DNA of 58,506 nt from Chromatiales bacterium (GTDB taxonomy: Bacteria > Pseudomonadota > Gammaproteobacteria > SZUA-152). Below the pieces are notes generated by a model, which was given only the letters and a program-made list of their open reading frames with translations, did not search any database and was not told where the DNA came from. Shown here piece after piece: positions 30,738 through 38,987 of this stretch (its first letter is position 1; each line of letters opens with the position of its first letter). The stretch is from the NCBI GenBank assembly GCA_026982555.1, contig JALSGT010000100.1, positions 1-58,506 on the forward strand, written 5' to 3'. A program made the translations under genes and the position numbers.

Positions 30738-31445
30738 ATGAACATAAAACATCTCACTCACTCGTCCCTTCTCTTTGCTGCTATTGCCTGGTCCTTTTCA
30801 GCCCAGGCTGTTCCGCTCTCTCTAACGTCGTTAACGGGGTTGGTCGGCGGTTCCCCGGCCGAAACTGCCATCTATCGAGCAGACTTTTCTTCGGTAGGCA
30901 TTTTTGATCTGGCTTCAATCACCATCATGGATAACAGTTCAAGGCTGGGGGGGGCACCAGGTCGATTCAGTGGCTTCGACCTGGATGCCATCATTTTATC
31001 CGACATAAGCTGCACCACGGCTAGCTGTGTTGCAGGTCTAAGCGGCTTCAGTCTGTTTGATTACTCATTGAGCGGCACCTTCTTTACCCCCGGCACTCAA
31101 CGCACGCCCATGGACCCCCGACTCTTTGGCACCGATGCCGGGGGTATGAATGTCGATAATGCTGTTGCCACATTGGGTAATTTCGATGGCAATTCAACAA
31201 CGGGACCAGGTGCCAATGGCTTTGTTAGCATGGGAGACAACGGTATTCTGTCCTTCAACCTGACATCGCGGATTTCCACCGATGGCCTGTTCATGTATTT
31301 GGGTGAAGTAGGAAACAATGGCGAGGTGGCTGCCTCATCTATCGAAGTGTCAGACAGACCTGTCAGTGTACCCGAACCCGCAACTCTCGCCCTGATGGGG
31401 CTCGGCCTTCTCGGGCTGGGATTTTTAAGCCAGCGACACCGCTAA
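30738..31445 (+). CDS. PEP-CTERM sorting-domain protein
   Basis: The 235-residue product has a signal peptide (SLLFAAIAWSFSAQA) and ends with a classic PEP-CTERM tail: VPEPATLALMGLGLLGLGF then RHR. The tail is recognised and removed by an exosortase, releasing or anchoring the protein during export, usually linked to exopolysaccharide. The body is beta-rich with one Cys pair (SCTTASC), with no catalytic motif. No exosortase is in the window. A -24/-12 promoter lies upstream and a terminator downstream, so the gene is monocistronic. Confidence 0.9.
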   Translation: MNIKHLTHSSLLFAAIAWSFSAQAVPLSLTSLTGLVGGSPAETAIYRADFSSVGIFDLASITIMDNSSRLGGAPGRFSGFDLDAIILSDISCTTASCVAGLSGFSLFDYSLSGTFFTPGTQRTPMDPRLFGTDAGGMNVDNAVATLGNFDGNSTTGPGANGFVSMGDNGILSFNLTSRISTDGLFMYLGEVGNNGEVAASSIEVSDRPVSVPEPATLALMGLGLLGLGFLSQRHR

Positions 31446-35213: not shown

Positions 35214-35897
35214 ATGAAGCAGCATTTCAGCGGTGTACTAAATGGACTTGTCGGGCTTATTCTTGCTCTGCAAGTAATGTACCCGGCTCATGATGTATCA
35301 GCGATGACAGCGTCCGCCCAGGATGTTCATGAAATCGCTGATATCTGCATGTACTCCCAACGCCTGTTAAAAGACTACGCACTCATTGGTATGAAAGTGA
35401 TGTACCACGACCCCGCTGCCGATCTAATAAAAAACACGAACGTTATCGATCAATATATCACCAATTTGAAAAACCGCCATCTTAAAAAAATATTGGATAA
35501 CGGCATTCATGAGCTTGAAAACCTCTGGAGGAAAGTCAAACCAAAACTACTGGCAAGCCCCACCCAAAAACATATGACTCAACTGCATAAAGAAGTGGAA
35601 ACATTTTCCCGTCGTTGCGAAAAGCTCGCAGAAGACTTGGCCAAAGACTCTAAAATAGAGAGTGAACATAATATGGTGCTAATCGCTGAATTGGGTATGG
35701 AATCCCAACGACTGGCGGCACTTTATATGATGAAGGCCTGGGATGTTGCTGATAACAATTATTACGAAGAAGTCCAAAAAATAGTGGGTGAATACAAAAA
35801 TATTTACCGCGACCTGATGAAAGAAAATAACACCTTCGTTTCTCCCGAAATTAAAACCAAATTAAAAGCCACCCAAAAATACTTTCAAGTATTTTAG
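35214..35897 (+). CDS. Secreted helical protein, PilJ/NarX-type sensor-domain-like
   Basis: A GAGGAAATC site precedes the ATG. A signal peptide (VGLILALQVMYPAHDVSA) leads to an all-helical mature domain with AQDVHEIADICMYSQRLLKDYALIGM and, 150 residues later, a repeat of that pattern (AELGMESQRLAALYMMKAW). This resembles the paired-helix PilJ/NarX-type periplasmic sensor domain (PF13675), but without membrane helices or a signalling module. It is probably a free periplasmic protein. It is the first of a three-gene coupled operon. The family assignment is moderate. Confidence 0.6.
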   Translation: MKQHFSGVLNGLVGLILALQVMYPAHDVSAMTASAQDVHEIADICMYSQRLLKDYALIGMKVMYHDPAADLIKNTNVIDQYITNLKNRHLKKILDNGIHELENLWRKVKPKLLASPTQKHMTQLHKEVETFSRRCEKLAEDLAKDSKIESEHNMVLIAELGMESQRLAALYMMKAWDVADNNYYEEVQKIVGEYKNIYRDLMKENNTFVSPEIKTKLKATQKYFQVF

Positions 35898-35900
35898 TTT

Positions 35901-36014
35901 ATGACGGCAAGTGAATCTGGTCGTTTTGTACCAACCATGGCCGAAAAAAATGCAAGCAAAATATTTCATGAAATTCGTAAAATATTAAAATTGAAACAGG
36001 AGCTGATTGAGTGA
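35901..36014 (+). CDS. 37-codon ORF between the two helical secreted proteins
   Basis: ATG 35901 lies 3 bases after the previous stop. The ORF ends in TGA at 36012-36014, overlapping the GTG start of the next gene by 4 bases. The product is a charged helix (ASKIFHEIRKILKLKQELIE) without a signal peptide. It has no own ribosome site, so translation would rely on coupling from upstream. It may be a real small protein or only a device that carries ribosomes across the gap. Confidence 0.4.
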   Translation: MTASESGRFVPTMAEKNASKIFHEIRKILKLKQELIE

Positions 36015-36784
36015 AAAAGCAAACATTATTCACCCCGAAAGAATTTTTAGTAACATTTATTTTTCTGTTTTTCTCAAGCCAGGCTGCGGCCGATATCCGC
36101 AGCCTGCAACAATTAGAGGCTGCTGAAGACATTGAAATGGCCAGCCAGAAAATCACCAAGGCTTACTTTTACCTACACCAGGAGATTCGTATCGAACAAT
36201 CTGAACGCGACTTGGAAAACGGACTGGATTCAATAGAAAAAAATATCAACACCCTCGCCAACACCAAAGACAAAAAACAACAACGCATGGTGAAGTTCAT
36301 GTCCTTCACCCTGGATGAAATCAAAGAAATCATTGAAAAACCTTATACCAGCGAGCATGGCGCTTTGATGCTGGATTACAGCGAAACCTTACTGGAAGGC
36401 GCAGAATCGTTAGCCAAGAATCACACCCATAAAAAAGAAAAAATGCTCATTACCACCAAAAAAATGATTTTTCTTCTTGAACGTGCAACGAAATACTATA
36501 TTGCCTTTCGAGATGGGTTTTCTGACCACAATAATGTCAAACAACTGGAAAAGGCCATCAAAGAGTTCGAAGCCCACTTAAAAATTATCCGGGCCTATAA
36601 ATACCCAGCCGAGCCCCAAAGGGCTGTGAGCAGACTCATTGAATACTGGCCTATTGCCAAAAACTTTTATCTTGGCATTGAAAAAAACGACCTGCCGTTA
36701 ATCGTATCGGTAACAACCAACCATCTGGAAAAGTCGCTGGCCGTATTGGAAAACTATCACCATAATTTGGCTGAAGGAAAATAA
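36011..36784 (+). CDS. Secreted helical protein related to the upstream gene
   Basis: The start is GTG at 36011, after ACAGGAGC. A signal peptide (FLVTFIFLFFSSQAAA) is followed by a long helical domain with EDIEMASQKITKAYFYLHQEI and, later, KKMIFLLERATKYYIAFRDG. This is the same two-helix-pair pattern as the gene at 35214, so the two are probably distant paralogues of a PilJ/NarX-type sensor domain. No output domain is present. A ligand-binding or buffering role in the periplasm is possible. Confidence 0.6.
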   Translation: MKKQTLFTPKEFLVTFIFLFFSSQAAADIRSLQQLEAAEDIEMASQKITKAYFYLHQEIRIEQSERDLENGLDSIEKNINTLANTKDKKQQRMVKFMSFTLDEIKEIIEKPYTSEHGALMLDYSETLLEGAESLAKNHTHKKEKMLITTKKMIFLLERATKYYIAFRDGFSDHNNVKQLEKAIKEFEAHLKIIRAYKYPAEPQRAVSRLIEYWPIAKNFYLGIEKNDLPLIVSVTTNHLEKSLAVLENYHHNLAEGK

Positions 36785-36879: not shown

Positions 36880-37713
36880 TTATATTCCCCCATCCTTTAA
36901 ATACCTGGCAAGACCATCCAGGTCCGGAAAAAGAGTTTTTTCGTGTATTTGTAACTTTTCAAGATCTTGCTTTATTTGGCCTTTATTAGCAGCCGGAACT
37001 TCAAACCAGTCTAATTCCTCCCACGGTCTCATTTCATCCTCGATATCCTCAAGCCCTTCGTTGATATATTTCCGGCCACTGTAAGTGAATCTTGCATGTT
37101 GGGATTCGATTCTTTTGTTGAAGACCCATGGCACAATAATTCTTGGCACATCAATTTTATTCACAAACAGGCCATCGCTGTCTTTTTTTTCATCGGCCAA
37201 AAGAATTCTGTTTTTAATTCCACTTCTATCCCGAAACCTAACCGTGTTTTCTTTTCTGTTTTTCCTGTTTTTTAACTTCAAATACCAAAACCTGCCAGGC
37301 CTGTCGTGCATTGCAACATCTCTCACAGAAAAGTACAGACCAATCAGCGGCTGGAGGGACCAGTCGATAAGCAATGTTGGCAGTCCGTGATGTTGAGCTA
37401 TGCAAAGCCATTCGTCCAGAGTCGGTGATTCACCTGTTGAAGAAAGAAAAGCATTACCAATATTCTGACTGGAAGCGTATCGTCGAAACCTCTCCAACAG
37501 AGCATATTGTAATTCAACAATACAATCCGTCGAACAGGAATAAAGCTTGCTGTACGACTCTATCACATCCTTGTTCCGCATGAGGCGAGGCTGCAACTTG
37601 TGCCCCTGTTCAGATTCACCTCTGTAAAAATATCGTATGTGGGGATGAGTTTTCTTTTTTGAAAACTCCTCAAGCAACCACGCAACCGACTTTATTTCTC
37701 TTCTTGGTTTCAT
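36880..37713 (-). CDS. FRG-domain protein
   Basis: The ATG at 37713 has an AAGGACG site. The 277-residue product carries the FRG domain, named for its (F/Y)RG signature: YFYRGESEQGHKLQPRLMR (residues 28-46), AQHHGLPTLLIDWSLQPLIGLYFSV and a basic C-terminal half. The domain occurs in accessory regions of many bacteria, often near toxin or defence genes; its biochemical activity is not settled. AT-rich composition and isolation between ald and trxB suggest transfer. No partner gene is beside it. Confidence 0.8.
   Translation of the reverse strand: MKPRREIKSVAWLLEEFSKKKTHPHIRYFYRGESEQGHKLQPRLMRNKDVIESYSKLYSCSTDCIVELQYALLERFRRYASSQNIGNAFLSSTGESPTLDEWLCIAQHHGLPTLLIDWSLQPLIGLYFSVRDVAMHDRPGRFWYLKLKNRKNRKENTVRFRDRSGIKNRILLADEKKDSDGLFVNKIDVPRIIVPWVFNKRIESQHARFTYSGRKYINEGLEDIEDEMRPWEELDWFEVPAANKGQIKQDLEKLQIHEKTLFPDLDGLARYLKDGGI

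Positions 37714-38987
<1,274 letters not shown>

Follow-up and report, generated by a model that had tools for sequence, protein, structure and literature searches.

A co-conserved pair of predicted periplasmic tandem PilJ/NIT-like proteins, the first of which is split by one stop codon in a Chromatiales bacterium

Nitrate receptors of the PilJ/NarX group hold nitrate by means of a G-x-x-R motif (PMC8199190), and the R61A replacement in one of them, McpN, abolishes nitrate binding (PMC6381276). The PilJ-type ligand-binding domains (PF13675) found in McpN, PilJ, NarX and NarQ are anchored by membrane helices to a kinase or chemotaxis output, and the nitrate sensors among them keep the GxxR residues. 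A related architecture is that of NasR, the nitrate receptor of Klebsiella oxytoca (PDB code 4akk), whose NIT domain has eight helices (PMC7496416) grouped into a pair of four-helix bundles within a single chain; NasR is a cytoplasmic protein that has both nitrate arginines and an ANTAR output domain. In the literature searched, no description of free-standing or tandem PilJ proteins was found. The two genes considered here, referred to as A and B, apparently encode a conserved pair of free periplasmic-type proteins which that literature does not describe.

Both genes occur in a stretch of 58,506 nucleotides from a Chromatiales bacterium (contig JALSGT010000100.1), hereafter the window. The original prediction, made from the letters of the window, recognized there a coupled trio consisting of two PilJ/NarX-like free periplasmic proteins around a 37-codon open reading frame (ORF), with a gap of three bases on one side of the small ORF and a GTGA overlap on the other. 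All three ORFs, the gap and the overlap are present where predicted (Table 1), no ribosome site precedes the small ORF, and the region does form an AT-rich patch between ald and trxB, with a GC content of 0.36–0.44 versus about 0.5–0.6 around it. The A-B region is present as a single copy in the source genome. The interval between B and trxB contains a minus-strand gene (36880-37794) whose product has an FRG domain (PF08867, E 3.4e-18). This gene is open in the window, while G006 (locus L052) and G009 (locus L051) have remnants of it, broken by in-frame stops, at the corresponding place.

Table 1. Positions of the features of the A-B locus within the window.
Feature	Position	Strand	Basis
Gene A according to its relatives, 266 codons + TGA; tandem PilJ/NIT-like protein, predicted periplasmic	35214..36014	+	nine open related loci; profile match 1-266
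ORF A as read, 227 aa	35214-35897	+	confirmed where predicted
A repeat 1, nitrate-motif position, residues 42-50, ADICMYSQR (GxxR replaced by A..C)	35337..35363	+	alignment
Cys45 of A	35346-35348	+	alignment, repeat-1 motif position
Cys135 of A (helix 4), invariant among A proteins, may form a disulfide with Cys45	35616..35618	+	alignment
A repeat 2, nitrate-motif position, residues 158-166, AELGMESQR (GxxR replaced by A..G)	35685..35711	+	alignment
In-frame TAG, codon 228 of A	35895..35897	+	comparison with nine relatives
Small ORF, 37 aa, in-frame C-terminal remainder of A	35901-36014	+	35/37 identities with the tail of G006 A
Helix 8 of A, removed by the TAG (residues 240-265 in the intact orthologue)	35931..36008	+	AlphaFold2 model of L051 A
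Gene B, 257 aa, GTG start; second tandem PilJ/NIT-like protein, predicted periplasmic	36011-36784	+	behind A in 9/10 A loci
B repeat 1, nitrate-motif position (GxxR replaced by E..E)	36125..36151	+	alignment

As judged from comparison with related loci, the three ORFs are two genes, the first of which is interrupted. The 37-codon ORF continues A in frame to its true end, and supplies helix 8 of the double four-helix bundle that A is predicted to form. Between A and the small ORF there is a single TAG and a single TTT, followed by the ATG, and the frame is identical to that of A. In nine related loci A is open as one frame of 266–298 codons, with Glu at codon 228 in 6/9 and Lys, Ser or Gly in one each. 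Five A genes from four genomes of the same genus, 266–269 codons in length, exhibit GAG or GAA at this codon, and four more distant A genes, likewise open, have Lys, Ser, Gly and Glu. A profile of A comprising 266 positions matches the window at 1-266 with "1 TAG" inside. The start-like Met of the small ORF corresponds to an internal residue in the nine relatives (Leu in L057), and the 38-codon tail displays four synonymous and two nonsynonymous differences from the A gene of G006. The GTGA motif represents the true stop of A overlapping the start of B; in the relatives, the junction is ATGA or GTGA, or the two genes overlap by a few bases. Apart from C-terminal helices within longer A proteins, the small ORF has no relatives, which leaves no third gene for co-conservation: the small ORF is never separate from A in the relatives, and neither the trio nor its "tiny charged protein" survives. 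A false small-protein candidate is thus removed, and the case illustrates how one stop codon can masquerade as a new gene.

As far as sequence comparison indicates, the stop itself either arose recently, by nonsense mutation, or reflects a wrong base or a minority allele in the draft genome: on the branch leading to the window, the substitution counts of A (15.5 nonsynonymous to 26.5 synonymous, versus 9 to 11 on the G006 branch) do not clearly point to a relaxation of constraint. The dN/dS values of 0.11 for the tail of A, 0.13 for its body and 0.08 for B indicate purifying selection over all three. General recoding of TAG is ruled out, TAG being a normal stop in the window, where it terminates 6 of the 43 ORFs of at least 150 aa, A included. 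That the TAG results from a base-calling or assembly error, or belongs to a minority allele, and that the living organism has an unbroken A, deserves serious consideration at somewhat less than even odds: the source assembly is a draft of 162 contigs, 73% complete, the TAG is one base away from GAG, and neither the tail nor the body of A shows clear relaxation of selection. However, when 16 genes of G009 were compared with their counterparts in the window, this TAG was the sole in-frame stop, which points to a low local error rate. If the stop were such an error or allele, the 37-codon ORF would be all the more the tail of A.

With respect to their export and domains, A and B both possess a hydrophobic N-terminus, and no membrane-like stretch follows it in either protein on the Kyte-Doolittle scale, the maxima over 19 residues past residue 35 being 0.92 and 1.01 for the two larger proteins. 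No Pfam match to a HAMP, kinase or chemotaxis output domain was obtained for A or B. The prediction of free periplasmic-type proteins lacking membrane helix, HAMP and output domain is therefore supported, export being itself predicted. The doubled PilJ/NarX-like sensor pattern that had been noticed in both larger proteins is likewise supported, with a sub-threshold Pfam match: in a PF13675 profile search the pattern is present, but A reaches 17.9 and B 21.4 bits, below the cut-off of 26.6. The A protein of G009 scores 25.7 bits against the same cut-off, and free tandem PilJ proteins with an intact nitrate motif score 78 and 84. The NIT profile of Pfam gave no match up to E 10, either for B or for A in its interrupted form, and a search of NCBIfam returned no useful match.

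AlphaFold2 models of intact orthologues of A and B, with mean pLDDT values of 85 and 86, respectively, consist of eight main helices; helix 8 of the L051 A model has a pLDDT of about 92 over most of its length. NasR (4akk) is the best full-length PDB match to both A (Z 21.4, rmsd 4.2, 250 residues) and B (Z 15.2, rmsd 4.1, 239 residues), with Foldseek TM values of 0.57–0.60 for the two models. For A, the NasR match stands far above the next row (Z 12.0). For B, a single bundle of the XylFII-LytS complex (Z 14.8) ties with NasR, but over half the length. McpN (6gcv) was matched over 115 residues by A (Z 10.8, rmsd 2.0) and over 112 residues by B (Z 13.2, rmsd 2.2), values to be read bearing in mind that helical bundles reach middling Z easily. 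A and B are each predicted to be exported and to contain two four-helix bundles in one chain, resembling the NIT domain of NasR; in effect, each is predicted to be the single-polypeptide counterpart of a NarX-type sensor dimer. Each bundle shares the fold of the PilJ-type domains, albeit with a weak Pfam match. Unlike NasR, A and B are predicted to be exported and lack the output domain, the arginines and a match to the NIT profile; unlike McpN, PilJ, NarX and NarQ, they are free and devoid of GxxR.

The loss of the nitrate motif was established by alignment, in which the motif of McpN falls on the repeat-1 column scored for A and B. G-x-x-R is absent from both repeats of A and B of the window. 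Among the A loci, the motif positions read A/S/D..C in repeat 1 and A/S..G/D in repeat 2. The B loci mostly exhibit E..E in repeat 1 and replace the arginine of repeat 2 by Thr, Ser, Leu or Ile, the window B having E..E and K..I; among B proteins, G..R in repeat 1 is retained only by the diverged B of G262. In bundle 1 of A, the motif arginine is replaced by Cys45, which is invariant in A, as is Cys135. The two cysteines occur together only in A, a single Cys at the Cys135 column being found in L066. Because helix positions would place both residues at similar heights in an up-down bundle, a Cys45–Cys135 disulfide is plausible. The sensor fold has been kept and the nitrate grip lost in a co-conserved pair of free NIT/PilJ-type proteins, predicted to be periplasmic, that occurs in Gammaproteobacteria and in a cable bacterium.

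B is located directly behind A in nine of the ten A loci (window counted), with overlapping stop and start, which shows that the two genes are conserved together. The nine loci are those of the window, G006 (L052), G009 (L051), G003 (L053), G011 contig 228 (L055), L056, L057, L058 and G262 (L059); in L054, the exception, A is an additional copy in a genome whose A-B pair lies elsewhere. The pair ranges over Gammaproteobacteria and Desulfobulbaceae, the latter represented by a metagenome-assembled genome (L057) and by the cable bacterium Ca. Electronema (L058). In the scan of viral contigs, no relatives of A were found. In the window, the neighbours are ald, trxB and the FRG gene; in G009 the pair similarly lies between trxB and ald, and G003 and G006 retain the adjoining trxB. 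Elsewhere the neighbours comprise PspA and a LuxR-type regulator (L056), a chemoreceptor, a binding protein and a multicopper oxidase (L058), or an AraC-type regulator (G011). The neighbour genes thus differ between lineages, and in the loci read they indicate no single function or partner. Since A of the window is closer to the Electronema and Desulfobulbaceae copies (49–51% identity) than to that of G262 from the same class (29%), the few loci known suggest horizontal transfer.

A second group of proteins throws light on the origin of this pair. Free tandem PilJ proteins with an intact motif (L030-L033, L035, L060-L066) agree with A and B in length, double repeat, full-length alignment and signal-like N-terminus; they differ in having GxxR in both repeats, in lacking the A-type Cys pair and in being mostly single. 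The motif occurs in both repeats of all 13 such relatives, a count partly due to selection, these proteins having been gathered via part of the GxxR motif. They are likely to represent the ancestors of both A and B. In the tree, the A proteins and the B proteins each group in a clade of their own among those with an intact motif, on long branches which leave the deep placement uncertain. In G370, two neighbouring intact-motif proteins are encoded on one strand (L064, 6001-6825 and 7209-8051, minus strand); the second branches as sister of the B clade, and this arrangement may be an ancestral form of the A-B pair. The simplest reading of this history would be a duplicated nitrate-binding pair whose motifs were lost later.

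Another free tandem PilJ protein, in which both repeats retain GxxR (L031 4288-5112, minus strand; L034 10956-11783), adjoins a nap-type nitrate reductase cluster and is a candidate free periplasmic nitrate-binding protein. In L031, its gene is divergent to the cluster, whose large protein contains molybdopterin oxidoreductase domains and a TAT signal. The two contigs, L031 (G017 contig 22) and L034 (G003 contig 57), of about 16 kb each, encode nearly identical proteins in the same order, although assigned to different genera; this likeness may reflect a stray contig in one draft or the transfer of the stretch.

Taken together, the locus is explained best, and with good confidence, as a two-gene operon, A then B, which codes for a NIT-like pair predicted to be exported and in which A is split here by one stop. 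What the pair does is a more tentative matter. A and B would be exported to the periplasm and pair there, forming a receptor or accessory module which senses a non-nitrate ligand or a redox signal and passes it to a membrane receptor; we consider this function possible, at rather less than an even chance. In bundle 1 of A, Cys45 in place of the motif arginine would probably be disulfide-bonded to Cys135. A still more speculative proposal, which we regard as doubtful in its entirety, is that A and B are subunits of a soluble periplasmic receptor derived from single-chain nitrate-binding proteins, in which the nitrate site gave way to a new ligand or to a redox switch based on a disulfide, and that the two-gene unit moved between Gammaproteobacteria and Desulfobulbaceae, cable bacteria included. 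The sensing or buffering role originally imagined for the set is conceivable for the pair, but the arginines that mark nitrate sensors are missing from both repeats of both proteins. Binding of nitrate or nitrite via other residues, the proteins serving as a nitrate buffer or sensor, would fit a fold class common to NasR, NarX, NarQ and McpN and the vicinity of intact-motif relatives to a nap-type cluster; it is nevertheless improbable, the gripping arginine being replaced by Cys or Gly in A and, among the B proteins of the window group, by Glu or Thr/Ile, and the R61A replacement being sufficient to abolish binding in McpN. Both the ligand and the partner of the A-B pair are directly testable.

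In the source genome, removal of helix 8 by the TAG should cause bundle 2 of A to misfold. A programmed stop, in which regulated readthrough of the TAG would yield full-length A beside a short form, agrees with the in-frame preservation of the downstream tail; it is very improbable, given that all nine relatives have a sense codon at this position, hence no conserved stop, and that TAG serves as an ordinary terminator of long ORFs in the window. The remaining idea, a real small protein made by reinitiation at the ATG three bases past the stop, in a frame ending at the start of B, and acting with A and B, can be ruled out for practical purposes, since in none of the relatives does the frame occur apart from A, its residues correspond to the final helix of A, and it lacks a signal peptide whereas its supposed partners are predicted to be exported. 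For want of a signal peptide, the 37-residue product, if made at all, would be cytoplasmic; the only use of the frame would be that reinitiation at its ATG could carry ribosomes into B.

Two minor observations concern the surrounding sequence. A near-perfect palindrome (AAAATACTT-TC-AAGTATTTT) occupies positions 35876-35896, with the TAG at its end; the G-to-T change lengthens it by one base, as a template-switch mutation would do, although this may be chance. Upstream, positions 30738-31445 encode an exported protein with VPEPATLALMGLGLLGLGFLSQRHR at its end, which resembles a PEP-CTERM sorting signal.
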